This document shows, piece after piece, positions 4,826-56,408 of a stretch of 64,000 nucleotides of DNA. The DNA comes from Anaerolineae bacterium (GTDB taxonomy: Bacteria > Chloroflexota > Anaerolineae > Aggregatilineales > Phototrophicaceae). The position numbers and the translations under genes were made by a program. The stretch lies in contig JALHNB010000023.1 in the NCBI GenBank assembly GCA_022843745.1, positions 1 to 64,000 of the forward strand. The letters run 5' to 3'. How positions within the stretch are numbered: position 1 is the stretch's first letter; each line of letters begins with the position of its first letter. The notes under the pieces were generated by a model. That model was not told the DNA's origin, searched no databases, and saw nothing but the letters and a program-made list of their open reading frames with translations.

Positions 4826-5704
4826 TTATCGCAGTGCGCCAGCCGTCATACCCTTGCGAATATGCCGTTGGAACAGGAAGTAAAAAATAATCAGTGGCAG
4901 CGTCGTCAGGCTCATGATCGCGAATTGCTGCCCGACGACGGCTTCGGCGGCCATTGCTGCGGGTTTATAGGCCGAGATCGCCAGAGGAAGGGTGCGGACT
5001 TCCTGTTTATTGAGCAGGACGAGCGCGAAAAATAATTCGCTCCATACCCAGGTAATATTCACAATGGCGACACTTGCCAACGCGCCGCGCGATACCGGAA
5101 GCACGATTCGCACGAATGTACCCAGCCGTGAACAACCGTCGATCATCGCCTGTTCTTCGAGTTCACGTGGGAAGCTCAAAAAATAAGCCCTCATCAGGAT
5201 AATCGTGAAGGGCAGCCCTAATGTCGCATAAACAATCATCATGCCGATCAGATTGTTCCGCAGCCCCAGGCGACCCATGAAAAAATACATCGGGATAAGC
5301 AGGACATGCACAGGCACAGCCAGCGTGAGCAGAAAACCCTGCTGTACAGCTTTGCTGCCTGGGAAACTTCCACGAGCCAGTGCGTATCCAGCGAGCGACG
5401 CGACGAAAAGTAGCAAAATAAGCGTACCAAGCGTTACGACCACACTGTTAGCGAAGAAGCTGATATAGGGCTGATTGGCGCGATCACCGATCCAGACCTG
5501 GACATAATTGCTGTACTGGATAGCCGCCGGGAAAGCAAAAGGAGCATTTAAAATCTCCTTGTCACTTTTGAGCGATGTCACAAACATGAAGACAATCGGG
5601 TAAAGCTCCACCAAAAACCAGAATATCAAAACGCCAAAAATAAGAATTTTTGGAATACGCCCCAGGATCGAGCGCCATAGTGGAGGTTGTTGTGTCTGTA
5701 TCAC
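4826..5704 (-). CDS. CUT1-type sugar ABC transporter permease, MalG-like
   Basis: A 292-residue integral membrane protein with about six transmembrane helices. It starts with GTG at 5704; GGAG lies six bases upstream. The inner-membrane EAA loop that contacts the ATPase is seen as LEEQAMIDGCSRLGTFVRIVLP at about residues 190-210 (an EAAxxDG type loop with Gln in place of the first Ala), which places it in the binding-protein-dependent permease family. The N-terminus (LIFWFLVELYPIVFMFVTSLKS) matches MalG/UgpE-type subunits. It pairs with the permease gene 14 bp upstream. There is no ATPase gene in the operon, as is common where a shared MsmX-type ATPase serves several importers. Confidence 0.93.
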   Translation of the reverse strand: MIQTQQPPLWRSILGRIPKILIFGVLIFWFLVELYPIVFMFVTSLKSDKEILNAPFAFPAAIQYSNYVQVWIGDRANQPYISFFANSVVVTLGTLILLLFVASLAGYALARGSFPGSKAVQQGFLLTLAVPVHVLLIPMYFFMGRLGLRNNLIGMMIVYATLGLPFTIILMRAYFLSFPRELEEQAMIDGCSRLGTFVRIVLPVSRGALASVAIVNITWVWSELFFALVLLNKQEVRTLPLAISAYKPAAMAAEAVVGQQFAIMSLTTLPLIIFYFLFQRHIRKGMTAGALR

Positions 5705-5718
5705 GGCTCGCTCCTTGA

Positions 5719-6675
5719 TTAGTAATCGCTTGATTCGATTTTAATCATGCGCTGGTAAGCATAAGTAACGATGAAAATGACCACGAACATGACGACGGCG
5801 ACTGCCGAGGCATAGCCGTATTCATGCAGCTCAAAGGCTTCTTTGTAGAGATAGGTTCCCAAAACGGTAGAGCTTTCTCCCGGCCCGCCTTTGGTCATGA
5901 TCCACACCAGATCGAAAACCTTGAGCGAGAAGATCAGTTGCAGCATACTGATCGAAAACAGCACGGGGCGGATTAGGGGAACGATCAGAAAACGGAGGCG
6001 CTGCCATTCGTTAACGCCATCGAGCGTCGCAGCTTCGTGGATTTCCTGCGAGATATTTTCGATGGCTGCCAGCAGCACAATCATTGGAAAACCGGAAAAT
6101 TGCCAGATGGAGACGGCTATAATCGCCCATAGTGATAAATCGACGCTTCCCAGCCAGGGAGAAGCCAGATCACCCAGGCCAATCGTGCGCAGCAGCGTGT
6201 TCAACAGGCCATAATTGCTCTCATAGATACGCGCCCATAATGCGCCGGTGACCGTCATCGGCAGCATCACCGGCAGGTAAAAAACCACCCGATAAACCGA
6301 TGAACCCCACGTACCGCGCGAGATGATGACGGCTAGTAAGAAGCCAATCAGAACTGTACCCAGCGTGGCGACTCCGGCAAATATCAGCGTGTGCGACAGC
6401 GCAGACCAGAAAAAGCGATCATCCAGCAGCTCGATAAAATTCTCTAAACCGATGTATTTCGGTGGCAGGAGGCCGTTCCAGTCGAAAAACGAAAGCTGCA
6501 ATGATTCAACCAACGGCATTGCCATAAATGCCAGTAGCAAGACCACCGCAGGCGTGAGGAACAGATACCAGATCAGATTTTTACTGATTGATCGCGCAAG
6601 GCGGGATAACCGGGTGTTGCGCGGTTCGGCTGCGTTGATGACTTGCGATCCAGTTAGTGTTTGTCTCCCCGCCAT
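5719..6675 (-). CDS. CUT1-type sugar ABC transporter permease, MalF/UgpA-like
   Basis: A 318-residue membrane protein with an N-terminal helix and about six transmembrane segments. The ATG at 6675 has GGGAG eight bases upstream. The EAA loop reads HEAATLDGVNEWQRLRFLIVP near residue 220, and the segment LVWIMTKGGPGESSTVLGTYLY near the C-terminus is a hallmark of UgpA/LacF-type subunits. It forms the translocation pore together with the MalG-like subunit encoded 14 bp downstream. It lies 123 bp after the binding-protein gene; that gap carries a hairpin and a small duplication, both listed separately, which may lower its expression relative to the binding protein. Confidence 0.93.
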   Translation of the reverse strand: MAGRQTLTGSQVINAAEPRNTRLSRLARSISKNLIWYLFLTPAVVLLLAFMAMPLVESLQLSFFDWNGLLPPKYIGLENFIELLDDRFFWSALSHTLIFAGVATLGTVLIGFLLAVIISRGTWGSSVYRVVFYLPVMLPMTVTGALWARIYESNYGLLNTLLRTIGLGDLASPWLGSVDLSLWAIIAVSIWQFSGFPMIVLLAAIENISQEIHEAATLDGVNEWQRLRFLIVPLIRPVLFSISMLQLIFSLKVFDLVWIMTKGGPGESSTVLGTYLYKEAFELHEYGYASAVAVVMFVVIFIVTYAYQRMIKIESSDY

Positions 6676-29486: not shown

Positions 29487-32400
29487 ATGTCATCGTTAGA
29501 GCCGCTGACCACAAAGCTCACAACAATCCGGCATTTAATTGCGGCGGGCGACAAAGAGACAGCACTTGATTTACTGAATCAATTCCTGAAGGAACACAAT
29601 CAGGCTGAGGCACATAGCTTGCGGCTGCGTATCCTTGTGGACGACATGAAGGATATTTTTCGTATCCACGAGTCGCTCAATTGGCTGGAACGGCATCATC
29701 CCGCATGGGAGTCGCTTCCCATGTTGGTTACAGCGCTGCATACCAAACTTGAATCGCGAGTCGGTGCAATGCGCGAATCAATTCTTGAATATGGCGGTAG
29801 TGGACAAATCGCGGAGCTGGACGAGCTTATACCGCTGGCAGATCGCTTCCCGGTGATTTATCTGGTGCGCGGGCTGGCGTTTGCCGACGCTGCCCGACCT
29901 GTACGCGAGGCCAGCAGCCCATTTCGCTTACCGCGTCCATCAGAACGCCGGCCTTTGGATCGTTTGCCAAAGCATAAATCGGAAGAATTGCCGAAACAGG
30001 CCGAGCAGTCGTTCGAACGGGCGATTACGCTGCTGCCTGCTCATGATCCGGCCCACCGCGAAGCGATTGAAGCGATAGCGATGCTGCACGAGGACATTAC
30101 GGGTGATCTGAAGGCCGCTTTGATCTGGTATAAGCGGGGATTGGCATTAGGAATCCCCGTCGAGGAAAAGATTATGCTGGTACAGCGTGGTATCGTCAAA
30201 CAGACCGTCACACGCTTTGCCCAACACCTGGACGGGCTGATCTCGCGCCACCAGTTTGATAAAGCAGCAGGGTTAATTGATGCTTCAGATGACCTGCAAG
30301 GCTTACCTTCTATCCAGGTACGTCGTGCTGATCTGGCTTTGCTGCGGGGCGATGCGCAGCAAGCGGAATCTCTGTATCAGACACTTCTCGACACCTTGCA
30401 AAAGACGCTCACGACGGATATAGGCGATTTTGAAATGGAGCAGGTTTTCCCTTTAATGGAACGGCTCCCCAAAGATATTCTTGTGCCTATCGATTCACAT
30501 CTGCCTTGTGTGCGCTATCTGGTGGATTACAACGATATTGGTCGGCGCACCCAGGTGGGTTTGATCGCTGTTTACCAGCATCAGGGTCAATATGACCGAG
30601 TCTATGAAATGATCCGGCAGATGTTGCAAGATCAAACCATGACTGCCAAAACAACCGCGATCTTGCTGGATGACCTGAATCAAACCGAGGTGCAGATTCA
30701 ACAGCAAAAAAGTGAGCGTTTACAGGCGCAGATTCCGACGCTCTGGGAGGCCAAAAATTGGCGAGGGCTGATTCAAACCTGCCGCCAGCTTACCAGCTTG
30801 CCCGGTGCGCAGCCTTCGGATTTTGCCTGGCTTGCTGCCGCCATGTATAAGGCAGGCGAGAATCCAGACGCGATTATTTTCATCCTGAATCGAGTTCAGG
30901 AGATGGGCGTATTGCCTGCTGAGGTTGCCCGTGCGCTGCTGCGCGATCTATCAAACGCCGGATACTGGCGCGTGACTGACTCGTATGTCGCATCTGTCGC
31001 CAACGCGGGGGGCTGGCGCACCCGTTATTATGAACGCCGCGCTGCGTTCATCGAAACGACACTCGCACAGGCCGAGCAAGCGTTCAAGGCGGGTGAAATT
31101 AATTTCGCTGAAAATCATATTCGCAGTGTACTAGAACTCGAATCTCAGGACGCGCGTGCGCGTTTGCTTCACTGCCGGATTCAATTTGCTGCCGGAAAAC
31201 CCTCACTCGCCCGCACGGAACTTTTAAAACTCGTCGATGATGAGGCGGTTGGTCGTGAGGCGGTGTTAGCGTTGGCAGAGATTGATATTGCCGATGGCTA
31301 CTTATTGGATGCCCGCAAACGGCTGGACGAATTGGCGCGAGGTGGGCGTGACGCGCGTCTCGATGCGCTGGTGCGTTCATTAGAACATCGAATTGATCGT
31401 ACCCCTGTGATTGAAATTGAAGCTGTGAAAACAGTTGTCTCACCGGATACGCTGCGCCGGACACCCGCTGCGGGTACATGGGCGGCGACATTCGCGGTGC
31501 GGTTGACAGGTGTACGTGCTGTGCGTCAGCCGCCATCTGTCGATCAGGCTTGCGCCGAACTGCTGACCGCGCTTTGCCGTGTTAGCGATAACCTCGGCTT
31601 GCAGACGTTGTTCGCATGGCGCTACATCGGCCACAAGGGCAGTTTGCGAATCGCGCTGATGTGCCGGGTCGAAGGCGCAAGTAGCGAGGAAAACGCCCGT
31701 CTGTCAGCCGAGGCTCTGTGGGATACGCTCAGGGGTTTGCTTCCGTTGCAGGATGAGCAAATCTATGCCTACGAGCCTGTAATGGGGGTAGATGAACTCG
31801 AATATTTGCGGATGCCTGAAAAAGTTGAAAGCGCTGTCGAGATCGTCCGTAAGGAATCGCTGATTTCGGTGAGCGAAAACGACGACGTTTATCTGATGTA
31901 CCCGTTCGCTTTTCACGATGGCAATATGCACCGTCTGCTGCGCACATTGGCGGAGCAGCCAGAGACGACCATTCTGGATATTCATTTTCAGCCGACGCTT
32001 TTGCTGCCCTGGGAGCGCACCGCCATCAAAAACATGATGGATGTAGACGTGAATAATTCGCCCGACAGCGGCGGTGGGCTGGGTTTTATGGGTAACTTCA
32101 GCTCACAGGGGGACGAGCGCTATCAACAAGCGCAGTATATGTATCCCGAATTTTTGCGTCATACCCAATGGATGGCGTTCGTGGTGCGTATTCATCTGGT
32201 GACAAAGGGTAATATGAACTCGGTGCTGCCGAATATCGCCGCGACAGGGTTGTTTGGCCCCTCGCGCTATGAGATCGCTCCAGCGAATTTCGAGCGCGAT
32301 CTGGAAGTCATCGCCAGCAATTTGCACGATGTCAACTGTGAGCGCTGGGGCTACAGCGCCGCGCCGAATAAGCTGGAACGTCTGCGTTATCTGTTGATGC

Positions 32401-33818
32401 CCGCCGAAGCGCTGACGGCTACGCGCATCCCGCTACCGGGAGCAGATGGTCTGCCGGGGCTGCCCGCGTTGAAAATCAAAGCCGCGCCGCTGCCTTCGAA
32501 TTTGCCGCAGAATGGTGTCAGCATCGGCGAAAGTGTGACACCTGTTCAGGGCCGACCCATGACGATCCGCGCGAATTTGCCGGATCGGTTGCGTCACACC
32601 TATGTCGTGGGGCGTACTGGCACGGGGAAGTCCACTTTACTGCAAAATCTGGCGCTGCAAGATATTGAAGCTGGGAGGGGAGTGGGCATTATCGACCCGC
32701 ACGGCGATCTGGTCGAAGCGATTCTTGAACGCATTCCGCCGCATCGTTTACAGGATGTGGTGCTGTTTGACCCTTCTGATACCGAACGCCCAGTTGGACT
32801 GAATATCCTCGATGTTGACGGCACATTTGAGAAGAATATGGTCGTGGCTGAATTTATCGGCCTGATGTACAGCATGTTTGACCCGCATAAAATCGGCATC
32901 GTTGGGCCGCGCTTTGAAAATGCCGTGCGTAACGCCATGCTGACAGCGATGGAAGTTCCCGGCAGCACCCTGATTGAAGTCGTGCGAATTTTGAGTGATC
33001 GCAAATATCTACAGGACTGCCTGGAAGTCATCAGCGACCCGGTAGTGAAGTCATATTGGCGCGATATTGTCGGCAACCAGAGCGATTTTCATAAAAGCGA
33101 AGTGCTGGACTACATCACCAGTAAATTCGGGCGTTTCGTGACCGATCATCTCGTGCGCAACATCATCGGTCAGAGCCAGAATGCGCTCAACTTTTCTGAA
33201 ATTATGGATAACGGGCGCATTTTGTTGGTTAATCTGGCAAAAGGCAAAATCGGCCCGCAGAACAGCCATTTTCTCGGCTTGCTGCTCGTGCCGCGCCTCC
33301 TGATCGCTGCTCTCAGCCGTGCGCATGTGGATGTTGGTGAACGGCGCTTGTTCAGCCTGTACGTAGACGAGTTTCATAATTTCACGACACCGGCCTTTGG
33401 CGTGATGCTCTCGGAAGCGCGGAAATATGGCGTGGCGCTGACCGTCGCAAACCAGTTTATCAGCCAGTTGGAAGATTCGATCCGTGAATCCGTTTTCGGA
33501 AATGTCGGCACACTGCTCACATTCCAGGTGGGTGTGAAAGATGCCCATTACCTTGTGCCGGAGATGTACCCCGTTTTCGACGTGGACGACATGGTGAATC
33601 TGCCAAATTTTCATCTCCTGGCGAAAATGCTTATCAATGGCAACGTCGCGCCGCAGTTCCCGGTGCGGACGCTGCCGGATTCGCGTGTCCCCGATTCTCA
33701 ACTTGGCGAGATCATTCGCTCACACTCGCGCCAGCGTTATGGACGTGATTCGTTCATCGTTGGTCACGAGATTCAACAGCGTTTCAACCAAACCCCGAAA
33801 GAACGATTGGCGAAATAG
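29487..33818 (+). CDS. TPR-repeat protein fused to a VirD4/TraD-like DNA-translocase ATPase
   Basis: 1443 residues; the ATG at 29487 has GGGAG seven bases upstream. Residues about 1-640 are helical repeats of TPR type (for example ETALDLLNQFLKEHNQAEAH, ARVRLLHCRIQFAAG-like units). Residues about 650-1000 include a VirB4-like region (GLQTLFAWRYIGHKGSLRIAL). Residues about 1020-1430 are a RecA-like ATPase: Walker A in VVGRTGTGKS with Lys1048, IIDPHGDLVE just after, Walker B in LFSLYVDEFHNF with Asp1294 and Glu1295, and a sensor region VALTVANQFISQL. The ATPase resembles conjugative coupling proteins, but no relaxase, VirB or mobility gene is near. The role is unknown: DNA pumping, protein export or DNA repair are possible. 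Confidence 0.85.
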   Translation: MSSLEPLTTKLTTIRHLIAAGDKETALDLLNQFLKEHNQAEAHSLRLRILVDDMKDIFRIHESLNWLERHHPAWESLPMLVTALHTKLESRVGAMRESILEYGGSGQIAELDELIPLADRFPVIYLVRGLAFADAARPVREASSPFRLPRPSERRPLDRLPKHKSEELPKQAEQSFERAITLLPAHDPAHREAIEAIAMLHEDITGDLKAALIWYKRGLALGIPVEEKIMLVQRGIVKQTVTRFAQHLDGLISRHQFDKAAGLIDASDDLQGLPSIQVRRADLALLRGDAQQAESLYQTLLDTLQKTLTTDIGDFEMEQVFPLMERLPKDILVPIDSHLPCVRYLVDYNDIGRRTQVGLIAVYQHQGQYDRVYEMIRQMLQDQTMTAKTTAILLDDLNQTEVQIQQQKSERLQAQIPTLWEAKNWRGLIQTCRQLTSLPGAQPSDFAWLAAAMYKAGENPDAIIFILNRVQEMGVLPAEVARALLRDLSNAGYWRVTDSYVASVANAGGWRTRYYERRAAFIETTLAQAEQAFKAGEINFAENHIRSVLELESQDARARLLHCRIQFAAGKPSLARTELLKLVDDEAVGREAVLALAEIDIADGYLLDARKRLDELARGGRDARLDALVRSLEHRIDRTPVIEIEAVKTVVSPDTLRRTPAAGTWAATFAVRLTGVRAVRQPPSVDQACAELLTALCRVSDNLGLQTLFAWRYIGHKGSLRIALMCRVEGASSEENARLSAEALWDTLRGLLPLQDEQIYAYEPVMGVDELEYLRMPEKVESAVEIVRKESLISVSENDDVYLMYPFAFHDGNMHRLLRTLAEQPETTILDIHFQPTLLLPWERTAIKNMMDVDVNNSPDSGGGLGFMGNFSSQGDERYQQAQYMYPEFLRHTQWMAFVVRIHLVTKGNMNSVLPNIAATGLFGPSRYEIAPANFERDLEVIASNLHDVNCERWGYSAAPNKLERLRYLLMPAEALTATRIPLPGADGLPGLPALKIKAAPLPSNLPQNGVSIGESVTPVQGRPMTIRANLPDRLRHTYVVGRTGTGKSTLLQNLALQDIEAGRGVGIIDPHGDLVEAILERIPPHRLQDVVLFDPSDTERPVGLNILDVDGTFEKNMVVAEFIGLMYSMFDPHKIGIVGPRFENAVRNAMLTAMEVPGSTLIEVVRILSDRKYLQDCLEVISDPVVKSYWRDIVGNQSDFHKSEVLDYITSKFGRFVTDHLVRNIIGQSQNALNFSEIMDNGRILLVNLAKGKIGPQNSHFLGLLLVPRLLIAALSRAHVDVGERRLFSLYVDEFHNFTTPAFGVMLSEARKYGVALTVANQFISQLEDSIRESVFGNVGTLLTFQVGVKDAHYLVPEMYPVFDVDDMVNLPNFHLLAKMLINGNVAPQFPVRTLPDSRVPDSQLGEIIRSHSRQRYGRDSFIVGHEIQQRFNQTPKERLAK

Positions 33819-40352: not shown

Positions 40353-40521
40353 ACCATCTCCTATTGATGAGCGTTTTGGTAATTGGGCGTATTTTAACCT
40401 GACTAGAGGTTAACTTGCAAGTAACGTTTTTCACAAGGCATTGTTGAACGTTCAAAAAGTTGTTAAACTTGTGAAACTTGAGTCCGTTTAGGATAAAGTG
40501 AGATTGAAAGGGGGCCGTTCT

Positions 40522-41736
40522 GTGCCTGACTTATTTGATAAAGTTGGTGGTTACACTCAGGCTAAAGAAGCGATGGCGCTGGGAATTTATCCATACTTCC
40601 GTGCCTTGAGCGATTCCGAGGGCACAATCGCCCACTTTGAGGGCAAAGAAGTGGTCATGATTGGCTCCAACAATTACCTGGGATTGACGACTGATCTGCG
40701 TGTGCGTAAAGCCGCGATAGAGGCAGTAGAACGCTATGGAACCAGCGTGACAGGTTCTCGATTCTTAAATGGAACGTTGGAACTTCATCTCGAATTGGAT
40801 CGCCGCCTTGCGAAGTTTGTTGGCAAGGAAGCGGCGCTTGTGTTTCCAACCGGGTATCAGACGAACGTTGGCACAATCTCGGCACTGGTGCAAAAGGGCG
40901 ATTACGTCATCGTTGATAAGGACGATCATGCCAGCATCGTTGATGGCTGTTTCATGGCGAGGGGCGAGATGAAGCGCTTCCGTCATAACGACATCAGCAG
41001 CCTGGACGATGTTTTGAGCAAGCTGCCCGCCGATGCCGGGAAACTGGTGGTCGTTGATGGCGTGTATAGCATGGGCGGCGATATCGCTCCGCTGCCAGAA
41101 ATCGTCGCTATCTGCAAAAAATACAACGCCCGCATCATGGTGGATGACGCACATGGTGTTGGCGTAACAGGCAATGGACGCGGCACAGCAGCGCACTTTG
41201 GCCTGACGGATGACGTTGATCTGATCATGGGTACGTTCAGCAAGAGCTTTGCGTCGATTGGCGGTTTTATCGCCGGAAGCGCAGATGTCGTTCATTATAT
41301 TCAGCATCACGCGCGTTCGCTGATTTTCTCCGCAGCACTTCCCGCCGGGAATGTCGCGGCAGTCCTGGCAGCCCTGGATATTATCGAAACCGAGCCAGCC
41401 CATGTGGAGAGTCTTTGGGACAACGCCGAATATATGCGCAAGGGCTTCAAGGAACTCGGCTACGATACCGGTAAAAGTAACACACCGATTATCCCTGTTA
41501 TTATCCGTGACGATTATCGTACCGTGCTGGCGTGGCACGCGCTGATCGAAGAAGGCGTTTATACCAATCCGGTATTGCCGCCGGGAGTGCCGCCGAATAG
41601 CAGCCTGCTGCGAACCAGCTATATGGCGACGCACCAGAAAGAACATCTCGACAGAGCATTGCACGCCTTCAAGCTGGTCGGTGATCGGCTAGACCTGGTT
41701 CATATGCCTGCCAGCACTGTGCCAGAAACAGGTTAA
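40522..41736 (+). CDS. Alpha-oxoamine synthase (BioF / KBL / serine palmitoyltransferase family)
   Basis: 404 residues from the GTG at 40522, which has GGGGG seven bases upstream; a GTG at 40498 is an alternative. PLP fold-type I: GSNNYLGLTTDLRVRKA near residue 45, HASIVDGC near residue 135, DDAHGVGVTGNGRGTAAHFG near residue 210, and the Schiff-base Lys in MGTFSKSFASIGGFIAG. The N-terminal GIYPYFRALSDSEG with long pre-domain is more like serine-palmitoyltransferase-type or CqsA-like members than BioF. Family members condense an acyl-CoA with an amino acid (Ser, Gly or Ala). No biotin gene is nearby, so a lipid or ketosphingoid role is possible but unproven. Confidence 0.9.
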   Translation: MPDLFDKVGGYTQAKEAMALGIYPYFRALSDSEGTIAHFEGKEVVMIGSNNYLGLTTDLRVRKAAIEAVERYGTSVTGSRFLNGTLELHLELDRRLAKFVGKEAALVFPTGYQTNVGTISALVQKGDYVIVDKDDHASIVDGCFMARGEMKRFRHNDISSLDDVLSKLPADAGKLVVVDGVYSMGGDIAPLPEIVAICKKYNARIMVDDAHGVGVTGNGRGTAAHFGLTDDVDLIMGTFSKSFASIGGFIAGSADVVHYIQHHARSLIFSAALPAGNVAAVLAALDIIETEPAHVESLWDNAEYMRKGFKELGYDTGKSNTPIIPVIIRDDYRTVLAWHALIEEGVYTNPVLPPGVPPNSSLLRTSYMATHQKEHLDRALHAFKLVGDRLDLVHMPASTVPETG

Positions 41737-41766
41737 CGACGATAGACGTTTGAGGTGCTTTTAGCG

Positions 41767-41797
41767 ATCCCGAATCAACCCTGGTTCGGGATTTTTG
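41767..41797 (+). terminator. Intrinsic terminator after oxoamine synthase gene
   Basis: Arms ATCCCGAA (41767-41774) and TTCGGGAT (41785-41792) pair perfectly with a 10-base loop, followed by a TTTTTG tract. It lies 30 bp after the stop at 41736. Confidence 0.92.
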
Positions 41798-41968
41798 TTG
41801 CGATACCATCAGTCTTAATGAATCACATCTGGACATCAATTGCGCTTGTGAAATAGAATACATTTGAATACATTTCTTTACGTTTAAAATATTCTGAATT
41901 GCATCTCATTGAACCCCTGAACAACTCGTGCGTTTCTAGGGGCGTTTCATGTCAATAGGGGGAAATCT

Positions 41969-44900
41969 ATGAAGTCATTTTTTAGCTTGCTAACCAACCT
42001 GTCAGTCCGTTTCCGGGTGGTTACGCTGGCGTTGGCCATCGCGGTGATTGTGTTGGGCGTGGTTGCGATCACCCAACTGAAGCAAGAACTGCTGCCACCG
42101 ATTGAGTTTCCTCAGACCATCATCCTCGGTCAGGTTTCCGGTTTGACCAGCGAACAGGTCATGGAAGTGTTGACCAAGCCGCTTGAAACCGAACTTGATA
42201 AAATTGACGAACTGGTGAATATCCAGTCCACGACGACAGGCGCGTTCGGCAGCGTGATCCAGACCAGCAACGAATTTGGTCAGAATCAGGAACGACTGCG
42301 CCAGAGAATACAAGCCGCCATAGACACGGTTCCGCTGCCACTGCGACGCATTGCGCCCGCCGCCGACCAGGACGCGGAAGCCTTCGCGACAACACTGCTG
42401 GCAGATCTGACACCGGATGTGCTGATCTATCTGGCAGAGAGTGATCCCAACTTCCTGTTTCAATTATCACCCGATGTCTGGGCTATTTTTCCCGCTGATA
42501 CGACACGTGCCGTTCTCGCATATCTGGCAGCGCAAACCGAAGCTGGCGAAGCGGACAAAAGCGTTTTACGCCAATTGGTCGATCAGGAAATTGTTCCCCA
42601 ACTTGACGCGCTGGATTTAGTTGCCAATATCACCGTTGGTGGTGGGCAGGTGCTTCCCGGCGAAGAAAGTGCGCTGGCAATAAGCGATCCTGCGACTGAA
42701 AATGCGCAGCCGTCCAGCCTGCTCCTCAAACTCTCGCGGGAAGTGTGGACAGTTGTCGGTGGCGACCTGGACGCATTAGACGCGAATGCTGTCGAGGCGT
42801 TGACCAGCGTGGCCTTTGAAATTCCCGAAACCGCCCCTGCGCTCCCGGCAAGCTGGCAGATGGATCGTTTCACTGATGCGACAGATTTGGTCGAAATGCG
42901 AACACTCACGCGCACGACTGCTGGCGTGTTCAATGATTTCTACACATCGGGTCGTATTGTGGGCGCACTCGGTCAGACGAATGACCTGACTCCCGAAGTT
43001 GTCGAGCAAATGTTGGCGATAGATCCGACGATGGCAGGCTATTTCGAAGCCGAACAACTTGCCGCGATGTCGCCGGAAGTGTTTGCTGTCCTGCCAAGCG
43101 ACTTTGTTGCCAATCTTGACGGTTTTACCCGTGACGCACTGGCGGCGGCTGCCCTGGCGCAAACGATTACCGGTGAGCGTCTTGATCCTGCGCCAGTTGA
43201 GCTACCCGCCTCCTGGCGCATCTCGCCGCCGCAAATTATCAGCTTCAGTTTTGATGATTTGCCGCTGGCGACCTTTAGCGTTTTTGGTAATCTCAGTACC
43301 GAGCAAGCCGCGCCGCAAGAAGAAGCTGCTTCCGAAACGGTTGCGCAGGCTGAAGCAACCCTTGAAGCCACGCCCGAAGCTGAGACTCCTGTTCGCGAAA
43401 TACCCGAAGGCCCGCCGCTGCCGCTGACCTTTAACCTCCTGTTAGGCAGTTTTCTGGGTACAGAACTCAATACGGCAGATGACCTGATCGACATGCCTGT
43501 TTCTGGCGCGATTGGGGAGCAGTTGGGGGCAAGTACCCTGCGTGCCGCCGATTTCTTCAACTTCCTGATTTTGTTGAGCAACCCCGAGTCGTTACCAGCA
43601 GGGGCGCCGACTCTACCCATAGATGTTTCAACACTTATCAACGGTCTGAGTCCAGAAGCGATTGGCTTTATTGCCGATAACGACCCGACATTCATCCCGA
43701 ATCTGACTGCGGATGTTTACGAACGCTTCTCGGATGCGGTATTGCAACTGCCTCAGATGAATCCGCCGTTGGCTGATGTCTGGGACACGCTGGCGGGTCA
43801 GCCCCAGTTCACCGAGAACCCGCTAGACTCATCGAAAGATTTGCTCGATATTGGCGGTGGCAGCGCTTCAAGCGTACTCAATACGATTGACGAGACGGTG
43901 CCAGAAGATTTTTCGGGCTACGAAGTGCGCCTGTTCGACAGCCTCACGCCGGCTGTTGTACGCTATCTTGCGCTCAACGAGCCGGATTTCTACGCCAACC
44001 TGAATCCTGCTGTTCTGGAAAAACTCTCACCCCAGGTTCTGGTGCTGCTCTCGCCAGATTTCCTGGCTTCACTTGACCCCGCAGTCTCGGAAAAATTGAC
44101 AGCGATTGCAAACGGTGAGCAGGATTCCGCCGCGACTGTGCTGGAATCGCGTTATACCACCAACGCGCCGCCTGCTGATCCAAATGCGCCGGCGATCAAC
44201 CCGGATTGGGCAGTCATTGAACAATTTTTCAATATTGAACTGGATACGGTGGATGATTTCTTCCGTTTCCCCGAAGGCTTCCAGTTTAACGGTGCCAGCG
44301 GCCTTATGAATGGTCTGTTCGCGACCCCGCAAGGTGCATCCTTTGCCTCCGGCATGATCGGCGGCCTGAGTGCGGACGCGGTCAACTACATGCTTACCCG
44401 CGACCCGTCGGTCTTTAACGACCTGCAACCCGCGCCGCTGCAAGCTTTTGCGCCTGAAATTCTGGCTTTGCTGCCGCAGGAATTGCAGGATCGCGCAAAA
44501 TCGGGTGGCGAACCCTTCAAACCAACCGATGCAGTCACACGCACCAACGGCGCATCGAGTTTACTCATTACCGTTTATAAATCGAGAGAGGCGAATACCG
44601 TTGAGGCTTTCCACACGGTTGAAGCGGTCATCCACGCGATAGACGAAGCCAACGAAGACATTCAAGTGGATGTGGCTTTCGAGCAAGCCAGTTTTGTCGA
44701 AGAATCAATCAGCGGTGTGGCGCGAGAAGGTCTGCTCGGCGCGATTTTCGCCATCATCGTCATCCTGCTTTTCCTGAGTGATGGTGCCTGGAATCGTTCA
44801 CCTCGGCGTACTGTCGGTCTCATCATGGTCGCCATATTCACGATTGGGCTGATCCTGGTGGTCGTGGGCGGCTTGAACGCGGCGAACGGTGATGTGGGGC

Positions 44901-46873
44901 TGGCCTTTGCCCAGGCCGATACCGTCGTGCGTGTCTTGCTGATTATCGGCATCGTCAGCGGCCTTCTCATTCTGCTCTGGCCGGGGAATATCCCGAACCC
45001 TGCTTGGCGCAGTACGCTTGTGACAACAGTGAGTATTCCCTTGTCAATTCTGGCGGGTTTGGCGATGATGAACTGGCTGATTCCAGCTATTCACAATCTG
45101 CTTGCGCCCGCCGCCGAAACATCGTCCATCGTGGCTTTTATATTACGCCTATTTCCCGCGAGTCTGACGCTCAACCTCATGACGCTTTCCGGCATGACGG
45201 TGGCGATAGGGCGCGTGGTGGATGATTCGATTGTGGTGCTGGAGAATATCTTCCGCGAGATGCAGACTGGTAAGCCAAAACGTGAAGCCATTCTTTCCGG
45301 CACCCGCGATGTGTCTGTCGCGATTTTCTCCGCTACCGTTGTCACCGTTGTGGTGTTCCTGCCGCTTGGTCTGACGGGCGGCCTCATCAGTGAATTCTTC
45401 CTGCCTTTCGGTCTGACAGTGACTTATGCGCTGCTGGCATCGTTTATCGTCGCGATTACGGTTGTCCCGGCGCTGGCCTACACCTTCGTTAACGAACATG
45501 ACATCGCGGAAGAAGAAGGCGCGGGGCCGATTGCGGGGCAGGTCGCGAAAGTTTATGAGCCGATTTTGAACTGGTCGCTGGCTTCAGGCCGCAATCGGTT
45601 TATCGTACTCGGCATCGCCGCGCTGTCCTTAGTCGTCAGCGGCGCGCTGTTCAGTACGCGCCCGTTCGCCTTTTTGCCGGATTTCGGTGAGCCTCAGATT
45701 GCTGTCAATGTGAGTATGCCCCCCGGCACCAAGCTTATCGAAACGAACGCACTGGTCAGCCAGATGGAACAGGTGATTCGCGATACATTCCCAGCGGACG
45801 AGCTAGGCACGGTTCGCGCGAACGTCGGTGGCGGTGGCCTGAGCCTCGAAGCGCTCTTGGGAACGACTAGTATCAGCGAAAATGTGGCTCAAATCACCGT
45901 TGGTATGCAATCGCAAGAGAATATTGACGCACGAACCCAAGAACTCCGCGCTCAGGCCGAGACGGTCTTTGGCGAGGGTAATGTAACGGTGTCTGCGGCT
46001 TCTTTATCCGATGGCGGTTTTGGAGGCTTTGAATTGGTCGTTGCTGGCCCACAAGAGGAACTTGAAGCGCTGGACAGCACGGTTATCGAAACGCTGGAAA
46101 ATGTCGAGGGTCTGGCAAATGTCAGCAGTAACCTCAGTCAGGTGGCGGCAGCGGGTAGCGGTGACAGCGGACCAACGACCTATCTACGCATCAACCTGGA
46201 ATCGGCGCTAAGTTATACCGGTGAACTGGAAACCCAGGATACGATTGGCACGACTCAGGTTGCTAAAGCCGCTGTTGAATCACTGGATTTGCCAGCGGGT
46301 GTGACCGTGAGCGAAGGTTTCCAGACTCAAACCCAGACTCAGGGTTTTCAGGGCATTCTGACCGCTATGCTGATCGCCATCGGCATCGTGGTGATCGTGC
46401 TGATCGTCACCTTTGGTTCGCTGGTTCACTGGCTGGACATCATCCTCAGCATCCTGGTTGCGCCGGTTGGTGCGGCGATTGCGCTCACCCTCGCCAATGA
46501 ATCGCTGGGTATTTCCGCCATGATCGGTATGCTCATGCTCATCGGCATCGTCGTCACCAACGCCGTCGTGCTGATTGATCGGGTCCAGCAGAATCGTCAC
46601 GAACGCGGTCTGGGGATTGATGAATCGTTGAAAGAAGCGGGTGTGCGCCGTTTGCGCCCGATTTTGATGACGACAATTGCCACCATTATTGCGCTGGTTC
46701 CACTGGCGGTTGGCCTTTCGGAAGGCGCGATTATCGCTGCGCAGTTGGGTATGGTCGTGATCGGCGGAATCACCAGCAGTATGCTTCTCACGCTGATTGT
46801 CGTGCCAGTTGCCTATCGTCTCCTCGACCCGCTGAACGAACGCATCTCGCGGTTGTTCGGGCGCAGGGGATAA
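41969..46873 (+). CDS. RND-superfamily transporter with giant repeat-containing extracytoplasmic insertion
   Basis: 1634 residues, about 600 longer than AcrB-type pumps; GGGG lies six to nine bases before the ATG at 41969. The N-terminal helix (VVTLALAIAVIVLGVVAITQ) and PPIEFPQTIILGQVSGLTSE are standard HAE/AcrB features. From about residue 130 to 880 the first periplasmic loop is expanded and carries five degenerate repeats of the form LTPxxxxYLAxxDPxF near 147, 339, 559, 658 and 799, plus an Ala/Glu/Thr-rich stretch near 450-480. The helix bundle then returns; the TM4-like motif VAIGRVVDDSIVVLENIF holds the proton-relay aspartates. About 60 residues with two extra helices are inserted before it. 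The second half is ordinary. There is no adaptor gene beside it. Substrate unknown. Confidence 0.92.
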   Translation: MKSFFSLLTNLSVRFRVVTLALAIAVIVLGVVAITQLKQELLPPIEFPQTIILGQVSGLTSEQVMEVLTKPLETELDKIDELVNIQSTTTGAFGSVIQTSNEFGQNQERLRQRIQAAIDTVPLPLRRIAPAADQDAEAFATTLLADLTPDVLIYLAESDPNFLFQLSPDVWAIFPADTTRAVLAYLAAQTEAGEADKSVLRQLVDQEIVPQLDALDLVANITVGGGQVLPGEESALAISDPATENAQPSSLLLKLSREVWTVVGGDLDALDANAVEALTSVAFEIPETAPALPASWQMDRFTDATDLVEMRTLTRTTAGVFNDFYTSGRIVGALGQTNDLTPEVVEQMLAIDPTMAGYFEAEQLAAMSPEVFAVLPSDFVANLDGFTRDALAAAALAQTITGERLDPAPVELPASWRISPPQIISFSFDDLPLATFSVFGNLSTEQAAPQEEAASETVAQAEATLEATPEAETPVREIPEGPPLPLTFNLLLGSFLGTELNTADDLIDMPVSGAIGEQLGASTLRAADFFNFLILLSNPESLPAGAPTLPIDVSTLINGLSPEAIGFIADNDPTFIPNLTADVYERFSDAVLQLPQMNPPLADVWDTLAGQPQFTENPLDSSKDLLDIGGGSASSVLNTIDETVPEDFSGYEVRLFDSLTPAVVRYLALNEPDFYANLNPAVLEKLSPQVLVLLSPDFLASLDPAVSEKLTAIANGEQDSAATVLESRYTTNAPPADPNAPAINPDWAVIEQFFNIELDTVDDFFRFPEGFQFNGASGLMNGLFATPQGASFASGMIGGLSADAVNYMLTRDPSVFNDLQPAPLQAFAPEILALLPQELQDRAKSGGEPFKPTDAVTRTNGASSLLITVYKSREANTVEAFHTVEAVIHAIDEANEDIQVDVAFEQASFVEESISGVAREGLLGAIFAIIVILLFLSDGAWNRSPRRTVGLIMVAIFTIGLILVVVGGLNAANGDVGLAFAQADTVVRVLLIIGIVSGLLILLWPGNIPNPAWRSTLVTTVSIPLSILAGLAMMNWLIPAIHNLLAPAAETSSIVAFILRLFPASLTLNLMTLSGMTVAIGRVVDDSIVVLENIFREMQTGKPKREAILSGTRDVSVAIFSATVVTVVVFLPLGLTGGLISEFFLPFGLTVTYALLASFIVAITVVPALAYTFVNEHDIAEEEGAGPIAGQVAKVYEPILNWSLASGRNRFIVLGIAALSLVVSGALFSTRPFAFLPDFGEPQIAVNVSMPPGTKLIETNALVSQMEQVIRDTFPADELGTVRANVGGGGLSLEALLGTTSISENVAQITVGMQSQENIDARTQELRAQAETVFGEGNVTVSAASLSDGGFGGFELVVAGPQEELEALDSTVIETLENVEGLANVSSNLSQVAAAGSGDSGPTTYLRINLESALSYTGELETQDTIGTTQVAKAAVESLDLPAGVTVSEGFQTQTQTQGFQGILTAMLIAIGIVVIVLIVTFGSLVHWLDIILSILVAPVGAAIALTLANESLGISAMIGMLMLIGIVVTNAVVLIDRVQQNRHERGLGIDESLKEAGVRRLRPILMTTIATIIALVPLAVGLSEGAIIAAQLGMVVIGGITSSMLLTLIVVPVAYRLLDPLNERISRLFGRRG

Positions 46874-46963: not shown

Positions 46964-47872
46964 TCACCCCCCTGGCAGCGATGCCGGATCCGTCGTCGGT
47001 GTCAATGTTGGACTAAGCTGCTTCGTAAACGTCCAGGGGCCGCCCTCTTTACAAGGGATTTGCACGAAATTTGCGTCAAGCGGATAGACATACCATGTAT
47101 ACGTCCCGCTGGCAGGGATTTTAAGCAGGTCAAGCGTCTCGTTCTGGCGCAGCTCTAGCACGATTTCGTAGATTCCCTGACCGCTGCCTTCTGGCGCGAC
47201 AATGCGTATCAGGTTGCGTGGGGCATTGGGGCCGCGCCAGTTGAACGTGATCGTGCCGCTGCCCTCAATCGCCAGCGTGCCGTTGACAGGCGTTAACACT
47301 TCCCACGAGCAGTCATAAATCTGAACGGCTGGCTGGACATCACCCGGTACATGTAAAACTTGCCCAATCGTAATCACATTGGCATCGGTTAAGCAGTTTC
47401 CTTCTACCAGTTCGCTGACGTAGGTATTGTAGCGATTCGCGATTTTTTCCAGCGCATCATCCCGCTGCACTTCATACGTCAGCTTCCAATCTTCGCGTAT
47501 GGTACAACCCGGCGTGGTCGAGGGAGTCGGTGTTTCAGCACCGCGCAGCCCAGGGATCGACACGCTGATGTCAATCGTCGAAGTTGGCGTGATGGTTGGC
47601 GTGTTTGTGGCCTCGACAGTCGATGTCGGCGGCTCAAATGTCGGCGGCGGCAGCAATGTGCGCGAAGGTGTCAGCGTCGCCAGCGGTGTAAACGGCGGTA
47701 TCGTTTCTGTAGGCGGCGGGGGTGTTTCGCTGCCTGTTTGAGCTTGTGGCGCGTCCACAGGTGCGATATTTTGCGAATTGGGAACGGGACTCATGCTCAT
47801 CCGCATGAGAATCGCGCCGAGCAGCATGGCGATGAGGAACAACAAGAGGGTAGGAAGCTGCTTTCGAATCAT
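46964..47872 (-). CDS. Membrane-anchored LysM-domain protein with Thr/Pro-rich stalk
   Basis: 302 residues; the ATG at 47872 overlaps the upstream ATPase stop by four bases. A signal anchor (LPTLLLFLIAMLLGAILM) is followed by a Pro/Thr/Glu-rich linker of about 85 residues, then a LysM-like module near residues 125-175 (LEKIANRYNTYVSELVEGNC, then ITIGQVLHVPG). The C-terminal part (about 180-285) is beta-rich with NLIRIVAPEGSG and PASGTYTWYVYP, like an Ig-type fold. LysM modules bind peptidoglycan, so the protein may tether the ABC system encoded upstream to the wall. It is the last gene of that operon. Confidence 0.82.
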   Translation of the reverse strand: MIRKQLPTLLLFLIAMLLGAILMRMSMSPVPNSQNIAPVDAPQAQTGSETPPPPTETIPPFTPLATLTPSRTLLPPPTFEPPTSTVEATNTPTITPTSTIDISVSIPGLRGAETPTPSTTPGCTIREDWKLTYEVQRDDALEKIANRYNTYVSELVEGNCLTDANVITIGQVLHVPGDVQPAVQIYDCSWEVLTPVNGTLAIEGSGTITFNWRGPNAPRNLIRIVAPEGSGQGIYEIVLELRQNETLDLLKIPASGTYTWYVYPLDANFVQIPCKEGGPWTFTKQLSPTLTPTTDPASLPGG

Positions 47873-49516: not shown

Positions 49517-50890
49517 TTACGCTCCTTCAACCACATCGCCTTCTTCAACCCCGGCGATAATTTCGACGCGCTCGTCGGTTTGCAGGCCAATCTGCACGTC
49601 AACACTGCGCGGGCCGTCCGGCGTTTGCAGCACGACGAAGGTGCGATTCTGGAACTGGCGTATAGCGGCAGGCGGCAGCCACAGAACGTTTTCGCGCACT
49701 TGCAGCGGCATCTGAATTTCGATCAGTTGATTCGTAGGCACATTTTCAAGTGTGGCGGCGACCCGCGTCGTCTGGTCAGCATCCCGTGCGCTGAGTGGAA
49801 TCTGGCGCACCACGCACTGTACCGCGCTGTCGGGGTCATTGATGATCTGGCAAATGCCGACCAAACCCACACTCAAGCGCTGCGCGTCGCCAATCGCGAG
49901 GGTGGCAATTGCTTCTTTGGGTTCTGGTCTGCCGACGCGGATCACGGCATTAAAGGCCTCGGCTTGATCACCGGGTGCAATATTTACTTCCAGAACTTCG
50001 CCGTCAATGGGCGTGTAAAGCGAAGATTGCGCGATATTGGCTCTAATCTGATCCATATTGAGCTGAATCGAGCGCAGATTTTGCTGGGCATCGGGGTTGC
50101 CTGCGCCGCTGCGGGCTTTTTGAAGATTCAATTCAGCCTGAATGACAGAATTTTCTTGTTGAGCGACCTGGAATTGATGATTATTGAAGCTTTGCGCCGC
50201 GCTGCTATAGCTGATTTCCGCGCTGCGTAACTGGGAACGTGCATTTTCGAGCGCCTGGAGAGCACTATCCACTGACGAGGCTGGCTGTTCCGGGTGGCTG
50301 CGTGCTTCGTCATACGCCCGCTGCGCATTTTCAAGATTGCGCTCGGCATCATCCAGGTTGATGCGTGAACTGGCGACGTTCGTCCAGGGGCTGTTCGCCT
50401 TCGTGCTTTCCAGGCTGAGGCGGGCATTTGCCAATGCAATCTCGGCATCTGTTACCGATTCCACTTCGCCCTGTGCGCCAGATTCGAGATTATATTGCGC
50501 TGATTCGAGATCAAGCTGTGCCTGGGCAAGCTGGTTTTCGAGATCATCAATCTGATAATCGGCTAATAATTGCCCTGCGCTGACCGTATCGCCGCGCTGG
50601 ACATTGACCTGCCGTATTGTCCCGCCGACCTCGAACGACAGCGCCATTTGATCGCGCGATTGCCAGCGTCCCGTAAATTCGAGAATTTCCTGCACATCGC
50701 CGCGCTGCACCAGATAGGTGGGGCGAGCGACAGCCGGGGCAGTTGGCGCAGGTGTGGATGTTGGGGCATCCTGCGCACCAGGTTGATTGTTCGGTGTACA
50801 GGCCGCGAACATCAAAATCAGGAGACTCATCACGCAAAGAAGGATTCTATTATGCTTGGACAGCGAGTTCTTAGCGCGCGAATATTTCAA
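49517..50890 (-). CDS. HlyD/MacA-like adaptor lipoprotein
   Basis: 457 residues from a TTG at 50890, with GGAG about nine bases upstream; no better start was found. The signal sequence LLCVMSLLILMFAAC ends in a lipobox (FAAC), so the mature protein is lipid-anchored. A Thr/Pro-rich linker follows, then a biotinyl-lipoyl-like part (FEVGGTIRQVNVQRGDTVSA), a long helical hairpin (about residues 115-260, LENQLAQAQLDLESAQYNLE and NARSQLRSAEISYSSA), and a beta-barrel C-terminus. These adaptors work with MacB-like ABC exporters. It starts 47 bp after the permease stop and ends 2 bp before the ATPase gene. Confidence 0.9.
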   Translation of the reverse strand: MKYSRAKNSLSKHNRILLCVMSLLILMFAACTPNNQPGAQDAPTSTPAPTAPAVARPTYLVQRGDVQEILEFTGRWQSRDQMALSFEVGGTIRQVNVQRGDTVSAGQLLADYQIDDLENQLAQAQLDLESAQYNLESGAQGEVESVTDAEIALANARLSLESTKANSPWTNVASSRINLDDAERNLENAQRAYDEARSHPEQPASSVDSALQALENARSQLRSAEISYSSAAQSFNNHQFQVAQQENSVIQAELNLQKARSGAGNPDAQQNLRSIQLNMDQIRANIAQSSLYTPIDGEVLEVNIAPGDQAEAFNAVIRVGRPEPKEAIATLAIGDAQRLSVGLVGICQIINDPDSAVQCVVRQIPLSARDADQTTRVAATLENVPTNQLIEIQMPLQVRENVLWLPPAAIRQFQNRTFVVLQTPDGPRSVDVQIGLQTDERVEIIAGVEEGDVVEGA

Positions 50891-53771: not shown

Positions 53772-56408
53772 TTATGATGTGATGGTTGGGTCTACATCGG
53801 TGGCACAGTCCACGAATTGCTGGAAGTAATCCCTCGGATTCTGTTCGCTTGCTGTGTCCAATGGCGGGATCGCAGCCGCACATCCTTGATAGTCTTTGGC
53901 GAACATTTCAGCCTGTGCCAATTCATCTTCGAGATTCGCATCTTCGTTAATATAGCGATCAAACGCCCGATTGAGCCAGCTTTGCACCCACGAGTCCTGT
54001 GGCGACCCACCGAAACCGGATGGTAGCGCGATCACATTAGGCTGACCTAAGAGACGGTCAATCTGATTATACAACGCGATAGTATCGGGTGACTGGCTGG
54101 CGGTCACTGCCGGGTCATTGATGAGCGAACGGCGGGCAGGCATGGCGGAGAACAGTTCGGGATGACGTGAAAGTTCGCTCAACCAGCGATAGCAGGCCTC
54201 CGGGTTCTGCGCGTTGACGCTGATGTACGCCGTTCCGACATTATAGGAGATGGTTGCATATTGAGTGCCTTGTGGGTATGTCGTCAGCCGATAGGGATTG
54301 CTGCCGACGATTTCTTCCACTGCGAACAGGTTTAACGCGCTCAATGAATGCGTGGAAATTGCCGTCGTATCCTCGGATGAATCAGCGATAGCGAATACGG
54401 CAACCGCACCGCCACCACCACGTGGCCCAATTGCCGTGTATTCGATATAACCAGCTTTTACCAGATCAAGCATCTGGCGGATGGCTTCGACAGTTGCCGG
54501 GTCGGTGAAATTGATCGTCACAGGCGTGGTTCGATAATCCAGCGGAAGCCCACCGAAACCGGCGATCAGCGACAAGAGATAATCACTACCAAAGCCACGC
54601 GGGATAAAAGGGGATGAATCCGGCGAAGCATCTTTTAACGTTTTGAGCGCATCGGTGAAAGCGTCGATTGTCCAGCCATCTTCCGGCATTTGAACGCCTG
54701 CATTCTCAAACATTTCGGCGTTGTAGCGCAGCACTTCTGGCTGGACGACAATTGGGAATGCCCAGGTTTTGTTGTCGGACTGGACTTGTGCCAGCGTGTT
54801 GCCGATCACATCACTTTTATCAAATGACGGGTCTGCATCCATGTAAGGATCGAGGTTGAGAACGTTTTCGAGATTGCCATCGCCGACGCTGTTGGTCGGG
54901 ATATAGTAGCAGTCATAGCTCGCAGACATCGCCTCCAGGCTGGTGTCACGGGCCGCATCCAGAACGATTTGTCCCACTTGTGGATCGCTGGCGACAAAAT
55001 TGTTGATGATCTGATCCCACTGATCCTGGTTCGGCAATGGCGAAATGAACGAGGTCAGGCCGAATTTAATCGCGATTTCGCCAGGATTCAGTACCACTTC
55101 CGGCACAGGTGTCGCGACGGTGACAATCGTGGTTTGGCGCTCGGCGGCAGTGTTTAAATTCCCGATGGCCAGCGCCTCAGCTTCCTGTAGGGCAGTTTGT
55201 GCATCCACGATGTCCTGTTCCATCGTGTCAATCGCGACGTTCAGATAATCCGAAAACAGCATTTCGGAAACGGGCAGCGCATGGTCATAGGCCTCAGTCA
55301 CGACAGCCTGATTTTCCGGCGTGTAGGTCAGGTCGGCAAAAGGTTGGTTGCTGTCACCTTCTATTCCAGCCAGACTTTTACGGGCCGGGGTCGAGCCAAA
55401 AAGATTGTTGGCGACATCAGCGCTTGATGTGAGGAATTTTGCCAGCGCGTAGGCTTGTTCTGGATATTGTGTCCCGGTGCTAATAGCAAAACCTTGCACT
55501 TCCATACCTGCATTCCCACCGGGGAGCAGTGAGCCACCAGGAGGATCGCCCTGTACGCCCGGAAAACTGGCGAGGCCAAAACTCTGCTGAATGCTCATCG
55601 CTGGCCCATCTCCACCACCGCCAACAATGACGATACTATTGCCACCGCCCACGCCGCCGATGATCCCCTCATCCTTGAGTGATTGCCAGGTCGTGAGCAG
55701 CGATTCAAGTGCCGAATTGGTCAATGCAGGTTGAGCAGGGGTAGCTGCCATATCCGCCAGCGATGTACCCAGCAAACTTCGCAGCATATATTTGGTGTTG
55801 CCATAATCGACGTAGCCCGCGTTTGTAACTTCGCCCTCTGCATCGCGTTTGGTCAGGGCGCGGGCAGCGTTGGCAAAGTCGTCCAATGTCCATGAGCCAT
55901 TGGGATAGGCTAGCCCAGCCTCGTCAAATGCTTTGCGGTTGTAGATCAACAAGATGACATCTGTCGAAACGGGCAGCGCCCATACCGAACGATCCCACTG
56001 GAAGGATTGCCACGCTGCGGGGATAAAATCGTCGATATTGAGCGTGGGATCGGCGCTGGTGAGAGGGCTGAGATCAAGAAAATAGCCCGCGCGAGCTGAT
56101 TCGGGTGTCAGGCTGCTCGAATTCACGAACACGACATCGGCTGAGGCAACATATTCCTGCATATCTTCCAGATGCGCGTTGATGCCAAAAGCGGGTGACG
56201 CGGCGAATCCGCCTCCACTGCTGCTGACGATGTTGAGCTTGATGCCAGGATTCTGCGACTCAAATTCTGCGATGAGATCGGCATCAAAAGTTTCGCTCAA
56301 AAATTCGGGGACAGCCAGTTGAAGTGTGACTGTCGAGTCCTGAGCCGCCAGTGGCAGCCCAACCAACAGCGTCGCCATCAATAAAAATACAAAATATCGT
56401 AAACGCAT
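53772..56408 (-). CDS. Secreted protein with two tandem ABC-type solute-binding domains (paralogue B)
   Basis: 878 residues. The ATG at 56408 has GGAG about seven bases upstream. A Sec signal peptide (residues 1-22, YFVFLLMATLLVGLPLAAQ) has no lipobox. Two complete family-1 solute-binding domains follow: about 25-430 (LQLAVPEFLSETFDADLIAE, VILLIYNRKAFDEAGLAYP, GGNAGMEVQGFAISTGTQYP) and about 445-870 (IAIKFGLTSFISPLPNQDQW, EVLRYNAEMFENAGVQMPED, GTQYATISYNVGTAYISVNA). A helical linker ending in a TP-rich strand separates them. A paralogue with the same layout lies upstream. No permease or import ATPase is beside them; the neighbours are MacB-like genes. The ligand is unknown. Confidence 0.88.
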   Translation of the reverse strand: MRLRYFVFLLMATLLVGLPLAAQDSTVTLQLAVPEFLSETFDADLIAEFESQNPGIKLNIVSSSGGGFAASPAFGINAHLEDMQEYVASADVVFVNSSSLTPESARAGYFLDLSPLTSADPTLNIDDFIPAAWQSFQWDRSVWALPVSTDVILLIYNRKAFDEAGLAYPNGSWTLDDFANAARALTKRDAEGEVTNAGYVDYGNTKYMLRSLLGTSLADMAATPAQPALTNSALESLLTTWQSLKDEGIIGGVGGGNSIVIVGGGGDGPAMSIQQSFGLASFPGVQGDPPGGSLLPGGNAGMEVQGFAISTGTQYPEQAYALAKFLTSSADVANNLFGSTPARKSLAGIEGDSNQPFADLTYTPENQAVVTEAYDHALPVSEMLFSDYLNVAIDTMEQDIVDAQTALQEAEALAIGNLNTAAERQTTIVTVATPVPEVVLNPGEIAIKFGLTSFISPLPNQDQWDQIINNFVASDPQVGQIVLDAARDTSLEAMSASYDCYYIPTNSVGDGNLENVLNLDPYMDADPSFDKSDVIGNTLAQVQSDNKTWAFPIVVQPEVLRYNAEMFENAGVQMPEDGWTIDAFTDALKTLKDASPDSSPFIPRGFGSDYLLSLIAGFGGLPLDYRTTPVTINFTDPATVEAIRQMLDLVKAGYIEYTAIGPRGGGGAVAVFAIADSSEDTTAISTHSLSALNLFAVEEIVGSNPYRLTTYPQGTQYATISYNVGTAYISVNAQNPEACYRWLSELSRHPELFSAMPARRSLINDPAVTASQSPDTIALYNQIDRLLGQPNVIALPSGFGGSPQDSWVQSWLNRAFDRYINEDANLEDELAQAEMFAKDYQGCAAAIPPLDTASEQNPRDYFQQFVDCATDVDPTITS

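Follow-up and report, generated by a model that had tools for sequence, protein, structure and literature searches.

A degenerate repeat array with predicted short-helix units in the docking region of an RND transporter from an Anaerolineae bacterium

RND pumps are understood mainly as members of three-component machines, which depend on docking subdomains as well as on an adaptor and an outer channel, and the locus described here raises the question of what becomes of the docking region of such a pump in a bacterium that has no outer-membrane channel. The window (the whole stretch of 64,000 nucleotides that was analysed, from a host genome assembly of 7.96 Mb in 117 contigs) contains a 1634-aa ORF at 41969–46873 on the forward strand that is free of internal stops. 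The product matches the Pfam family ACR_tran with an E-value of 2.1e-117 (393.6 bits, curated cut-off 28), retrieves only RND families from NCBIfam, every one below its cut-off, and is, to judge from its sequence, an HAE1/AcrB-type RND transporter. No other ACR_tran protein was found in the genome, all four matches of which fall inside this one; a second RND-superfamily match, to MMPL, is seen in a 497-aa frame (G000:C27:19883-20317, L001; E 5.6e-6). The Asp-Asp pair of TM4 is present, and we take it to be the proton relay with the role that it has in AcrB. In TM10, a T-N pair (GIVVTNAVV, residues 1526–1534) presumably stands at the position of AcrB Lys940, and the Lys is absent. The same T-N pair is found in the monoderm RNDs L041 and L103, and is hence not peculiar to the repeat-bearing clade described below.

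The TM1–TM2 loop of the protein measures ∼900 residues, ∼600 more than the ∼300 of canonical RNDs, which bears out the large extracytoplasmic insertion claimed in an earlier note on this DNA. ACR_tran positions 2–113 are matched at 41993–42331 and positions 270–357 at 44531–44791, and the gap from 113 to 270 corresponds to the first half of PN2 together with DN. No Pfam domain is found in the insert at curated cut-off; ALTTAQ_rpt (PF20080) at residues 265–282 scores 14.3 bits and does not reach its cut-off of 26.4. The earlier supposition that the pattern belongs to no named family holds for both Pfam and NCBIfam, and no description of such an RND or repeat was found in the literature by title or abstract opening.

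Five degenerate repeat units are recovered within the loop (Table 1). The repeat profile was seeded and iterated on homologues of families f38 and f40 alone, with the proteins of the host family (f1) excluded, and yields 15.1–40.8 bits on the five units, against a best score of 9.1 bits in shuffled inserts (n = 1000). Among seven array-free RNDs the maximum is 0.9 bits (L102), the remaining six giving −2.2 bits or less, or no match. An unsupervised pick of the five most similar 35-residue windows in the insert returns the same five places (starts at 145, 338, 558, 657 and 798) with a similarity score of 439, against a mean of 39, a standard deviation of 20 and a maximum of 122 in 60 shuffles. 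The five repeats that had been read from the letters thus exceed chance both with and without a profile, and are also present in close homologues. The LDTxDDF-like strip reported ahead of several units is likewise seen, as DTxDD-like strips at residues 301 (loose), 499, 619 and 757, ahead of units 2–5. A sixth unit in residues 236–336 is rejected (∼ −3.5 bits in the window protein; in the corresponding region of relatives at best 6.3 bits in L036, and 1.4 bits or less at 254–292 in L120). The linker at 443–490 is the least conserved stretch against five of the six relatives compared and has a pLDDT below 50 over much of its length in the model. The insert is acidic in composition, with 14.7% D+E and 3.7% K+R. 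Units 2, 4 and 5 each have their own orthologue in L039, the number of units varies from two to eight across relatives, and the adjacent, near-identical units of L131 point to a recent and continuing duplication.

Table 1. Features of the RND transporter and its repeat array (all on the forward strand; positions in the window; bit scores of the units are those of the f38/f40 repeat profile)
Feature	Position	Strand	Residues	Evidence and remarks
TM1 and PN1	41969..42343	+	1–125	ACR_tran 2–113 match; PN1 strands and helices in model
Repeat unit 1	42398..42526	+	144–186	32.7 bits
PN2 alpha1 and beta2, ahead of beta1	42566..42673	+	200–235	32.9 bits, f38/f40 profile
Loose DTxDD-like strip ahead of unit 2	42869..42898	+	301–310	missed by regular expression
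Repeat unit 2	42977..43141	+	337–391	38.6 bits; matches L039 134–218
PN2 beta1, apparently displaced, behind alpha1-beta2	43229..43285	+	421–439	9.4 bits; strand 432–440 in model
Ala/Glu/Pro/Thr-rich linker	43295..43438	+	443–490	25–50% identity to six relatives
Repeat unit 3	43646..43747	+	560–593	15.1 bits; strip ahead at 43463–43495
Repeat unit 4	43940..44098	+	658–710	40.8 bits; strip ahead at 43823–43852
Repeat unit 5	44366..44491	+	800–841	20.7 bits; strip ahead at 44237–44269
PN2 second half (beta3-alpha2-beta4)	44510..44758	+	848–930	ACR_tran 270–357; model
TM4 Asp-Asp pair	45212..45238	+	1082–1090	RVVDDSIVV
Short linker at the apparent site of the missing DC	46139..46177	+	1391–1403	flank-motif distance 23

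Each unit consists of a 19-residue head followed by turns of 8 residues, modelled as short helices, such that the L-(S/T)-P-E turns are spaced by 19 once and by 8 thereafter (e.g. 659, 678, 686, 694 and 702). A hydrophobic period of 8 is detected by lag-8 autocorrelation in all four inserts tested, with values of 0.23–0.30 in L125, L129 and L131 and of 0.13 in the window protein (shuffle maximum 0.124). For the two-unit loop of L040, AlphaFold2 predicts 5–6-residue helices from residues 200, 208, 216, 224 and 232, and a second run with starts at 288, 296, 304, 312 and 320, the final helix of each run being longer. Across the models the helices are mostly of 4–20 residues, with one of 38 residues (176–213) that spans PN2 alpha1, and the units are accordingly modelled as runs of short helices. 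Both models are of moderate confidence (pLDDT 75.4 and pTM 0.46 for the window protein, 73.9 and 0.51 for L040), and the alignment used as input for the window model (A2) is flawed in its placement of two relatives, the beta1 stretch of L040 falling on window unit 1 and alpha1-beta2 of L039 on the linker. With VIA-align, the L040 model superimposes on CmeB with Z 16.1 (rmsd 10.7, 183 residues), and the window model on the periplasmic domain of AcrD with Z 9.7 (rmsd 5.9, 159 residues).

Foldseek returns no match to the window model at an E-value of 0.001 or better. Mesothelin heads the list below significance (E 0.041); homology to mesothelin (PF06060) is rejected on sequence, with no match in the window genome and, among six genomes, a single sub-threshold match (E 0.2) on a contig other than that of the pump. 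The likeness to mesothelin and stereocilin is likely limited to the common arrangement of a short-helix ARM/HEAT solenoid. In the PDB, the unit profile finds 9zem ('HeliScrew4') at E 1.7e-19, all other PDB sequences being at E 0.13 or worse, and the window insert alone finds it at E 0.0084. In its aligned stretches, 9zem, a protein of 120 residues, has in common with the units the 8-residue turns of L-(S/T)-P-E type, but not the 19-residue heads. The entry is absent among the Foldseek matches listed, and no literature on HeliScrew or ALTTAQ was found.

The position of the array relative to the docking subdomains can be followed in relatives. The motifs that flank DC are 13–23 residues apart in all 22 clade members measured (11 f1, 2 f5, 2 f38 and 6 f40 proteins, and L040), with 23 residues between motif starts in the window protein. 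Among the remaining 21 of the 43 RNDs, 20 have distances of 96–107 and L114 has one of 295. These distances indicate that DC is missing in the repeat-bearing Anaerolineae clade, and they support the earlier proposal of an array that takes over from docking parts. In L040 and L165, the interval between PN2 beta2 and beta3, i.e. the DN position, contains a linker and two units and nothing else; this interval is described as a known insertion point of funnel domains (PMC8277102). DN is recognisable in no clade member, as read by eye from the sequences apart from L040 and L165; the repeats stand in its place, as read for the window protein also from an alignment with L040. Two proteins of family f42, which carry one or two units, exhibit a DC-flank distance of ∼107, and retention of both DC and DN in this family implies that the array did not require the loss of the docking subdomains. 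Compared with AcrB, MexB and MdtB (HAE1), the window pump thus has in common the TM and porter core, the PN1/PN2 fold and the TM4 Asp pair, whereas it is without DC or a recognisable DN, bears a repeat array instead, has an altered PN2 strand order along with its host family, and resides in a genome without OEP. The SwrC-type HAE1-like RNDs of monoderms (Bacillus, Paenibacillus and Streptomyces) are 30–50% identical in the core over segments, and those measured keep a DC-sized segment and have no repeats. A model of Bacillus anthracis ApeX is described in which the docking domain is absent (PMC5596346).

The altered strand order concerns PN2 beta1, for which, as for alpha1-beta2, a profile was built from f38/f40. 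In L039, L124, both f38 proteins, six f40 proteins and both f42 proteins, beta1 precedes alpha1-beta2. Canonical RNDs match both motifs in 13 of 72 cases, all 13 in the normal order; with 59 of 72 lacking one or both motifs at cut-off, the order is checked in these 13 only. In all 11 host-family proteins, beta1 instead follows alpha1-beta2 (421–438 versus 200–235 in the window protein). By itself the beta1 motif is weak in the host family (5.1–20.0 bits), and a host-family beta1 profile by itself has no match in L039 or L131, so that the case for a permutation rests on the whole module of unit 2 plus beta1. A host-family profile of this module matches L039 at 134–244 with 74.2 bits (next best 9.1) and L124 at 131–250 with 53.0 bits (next best 6.4), in both cases ahead of alpha1-beta2 (254–288 and 258–290, respectively). 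These matches indicate one orthologous module that lies on opposite sides of alpha1-beta2 in f5 and in f1. In the host family, a PN2 strand and one repeat unit have, by this evidence, moved behind their helix-strand partner, an apparent intradomain permutation. In the window model residues 432–440 are assigned as strand, which suggests that the moved strand may still pair within PN2. The simplest route for the relocation would be a duplication after which the copies lost opposite halves. The stretch that the earlier note called an insertion also includes the displaced PN2 pieces at 200–235 and ∼421–439.

In a tree of 43 cores rooted at midpoint, a branch with support 99/94 separates the 24 repeat-bearing RNDs from the others (the duplicate loci L115, equal to L036, and L116, equal to L038, were dropped before counting). 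Family f42 branches first and L040 next, followed by f38, f40, and f5 with f1 (100/99), and f1 forms one group (100/100). The parsimonious order starts with repeats beside intact DN and DC (f42), proceeds through two units with DC gone (L040) to four to eight units (f38 and f40), and ends with a unit ahead of beta1 (f5) and then the moved strand (f1). In a class sample of 298 genomes, 66 match the protein at E 1e-20 and 23 carry the repeat at E 1e-6, scored on the best candidates per genome (up to 22); a genome of family f5 (G270) gives no repeat match in this survey though its pump has units. All repeat matches of the class sample are in RND frames, the three truncated ones being RND pieces at contig ends. 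Within the host family, the pump is found at E 1e-40 in 41 of 98 genomes and 18 of 24 genera; genus g7 has it in 0 of 34 genomes at the same threshold, which reflects either a clean loss there or a later gain elsewhere. The repeat occurs in four of 400 genomes sampled from the phylum, always in RND frames, and, among the genomes behind 12 loci, in the three whose pumps are long but not in the nine others. In the phylum of L041 it is found in 0 of 398 genomes (a search without positive control), and in that of L043 a match is seen in 1 of 396, in a 2027-aa frame (L175, G1296) that, in the 548 residues seen, is made of 8-residue x-M-P-P-E-A-F-A repeats and is not an RND. The inner period thus also occurs outside the clade.

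The insert appears to be held by selection. For five pairs, dN/dS is 0.106, 0.149, 0.131, 0.090 and 0.152 in the insert and 0.117, 0.097, 0.059, 0.078 and 0.151 in the core, where the ranges termed insert take in the displaced PN2 pieces and dS is saturated for L117/L118. These ratios argue that the insert is under purifying selection; the units and the core show similar identity against six relatives.

As the earlier note had proposed, the host is probably a monoderm without an outer-membrane factor: neither OEP (PF02321) nor Omp85 has a match in the genome, the control search for each being positive in 7 of 14 genomes. The gene upstream of the pump (40498–41736) is serine-palmitoyltransferase-like and falls below every equivalog cut-off shown (best NCBIfam score 527 bits, cut-off 640). 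Such an acyltransferase gene adjoins the pump in nine of the ten host-family loci with flanks, convergent in all nine, and in none of 12 loci of other families. Convergence and absence outside the host family make this synteny rather than an operon, and in nine convergent loci it indicates neither a partner nor a substrate; lipid export through this neighbour is rejected on the same grounds. Only in the window do the two genes run in tandem (41736–41969), which implies that the acyltransferase gene or the pump was inverted or moved in this lineage. Downstream, on the opposite strand, lie genes for a LysM protein (46964–47872), two ABC ATPases, an MFP and a MacB/FtsX-like permease. The statement that no adaptor gene is present hence needs amendment, as an adaptor-type (HlyD/MFP) gene is located at 49517–50890, 2.6 kb from the pump and inside the ABC cluster; relatives of this MFP are beside the pump in 0 of 22 related loci, which speaks against the MacAB-like ABC/MFP cluster as a partner. 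The window also contains a 1443-aa ORF with no Pfam match at E 1e-5 (29487–33818), and encodes two long proteins that carry an SBP_bac_1 domain, one of 878 aa (53772–56408) and one of 888 aa (56617–59283); binding proteins of this type are usually about half that length.

What the array does is best read, in our opinion and with about an even chance of being right, as the exit crown of a proton-driven HAE1-type exporter that engages the wall, the docking funnel having been rebuilt for an envelope without an outer membrane. The pump would be driven by the proton gradient and would be a trimer as in AcrB, with the PN/PC porter gathering substrate in the usual way. On top of the porter the array would form a stiff, acidic crown, which would engage or space the cell wall or surface layer, and substrate would exit beyond or through this crown. 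The one direct hint of wall contact comes from a sister lineage, where L133 (f42; ORF 1348–6261, forward strand) carries a LysM match between its two repeat units (458–500, 37.1 bits, cut-off 20.9). Counting against the crown, LysM reaches its cut-off in L133 only, the match in L134 being below it, and both proteins are outside the host family. By analogy, the three arrays of a trimer might instead close into a self-contained tube across the wall. MmpL5 of mycobacteria (HAE2) offers a precedent, likewise being an RND with a long helical extracytoplasmic insert and no known outer channel; its insert in PD2, a coiled-coil hairpin of 196 residues, is described as modelled into a 13 nm tube and as required for efflux (PMC12501195). 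The logic of an RND without outer-membrane channel is the same, and the array stands in the funnel position. The window protein differs in having many units of short helices in the models and no coiled coil, on which an MmpL5-like coiled-coil tube is rejected, and a count of two to eight units among relatives would be odd for a tube of fixed length; we regard a conduit as unlikely. A related and equally speculative proposal, which we also hold to be improbable, is that the arrays form a self-supporting, length-adjustable exit across the wall that replaces adaptor and outer channel, independent of MmpL5, and that duplication and loss within the array carried the PN2 strand to its new place, leaving a subdomain folded from both sides of the units.

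The array could also lie beside the path of the substrate, as a solenoid scaffold to which a partner protein, a glycan or the substrate itself would bind. Solenoids of short helices of the ARM/HEAT and mesothelin types are described as binding proteins or glycans (PMC2628672 and PMC10035497), the acidic composition would suit such a role, and the per-unit orthologues across families (units 2, 4 and 5 in L039) fit set roles for individual units. We nevertheless find a scaffold doubtful, as no partner gene is seen, the mesothelin match of Foldseek is weak (E 0.041, probability 0.47, TM 0.20 on target) and a mesothelin-family sequence match is absent from the window genome. A useless repeat expansion that the pump merely survives would account for the variable unit number, the near-identical adjacent units of L131 and the poorly conserved linker. 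It is much harder to reconcile with an insert dN/dS of 0.09–0.15 against 0.06–0.15 in the core, with a length of 1519–1821 aa in all 11 host-family proteins examined, and with the array being kept across the genomes and genera of the host family counted above, and seems to us quite improbable. That the long loop arises from a frameshift, a chimeric contig or a wrong gene call, the possibility on which the earlier observation would have fallen, has a practically negligible chance: the frame is single and open, and relatives at ∼42–62% identity, from many genomes, align with the window protein over its full length, which refutes an artefact. The insertion is a true and well conserved feature.

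The transporter stands out among HAE1 RND transporters by a change of topology that would surprise specialists. The graded relatives illustrate how, where an outer-membrane channel is absent, docking subdomains can be given up and a modular solenoid can take their place, from repeats beside docking domains, through two units for DN with DC gone and four to eight units, to the permutation. The series makes the exit of an RND without an outer membrane a testable question, and provides an example from nature of a domain permuted by way of a repeat array. Extra residues in the first loop, ahead of the second half of PN2, are also seen in the clostridial-type RNDs L095, L098, L104 and L111 (∼1170–1220 aa), and are perhaps another, unrelated docking-region insert in monoderms; those of L098 are glutamine-rich.
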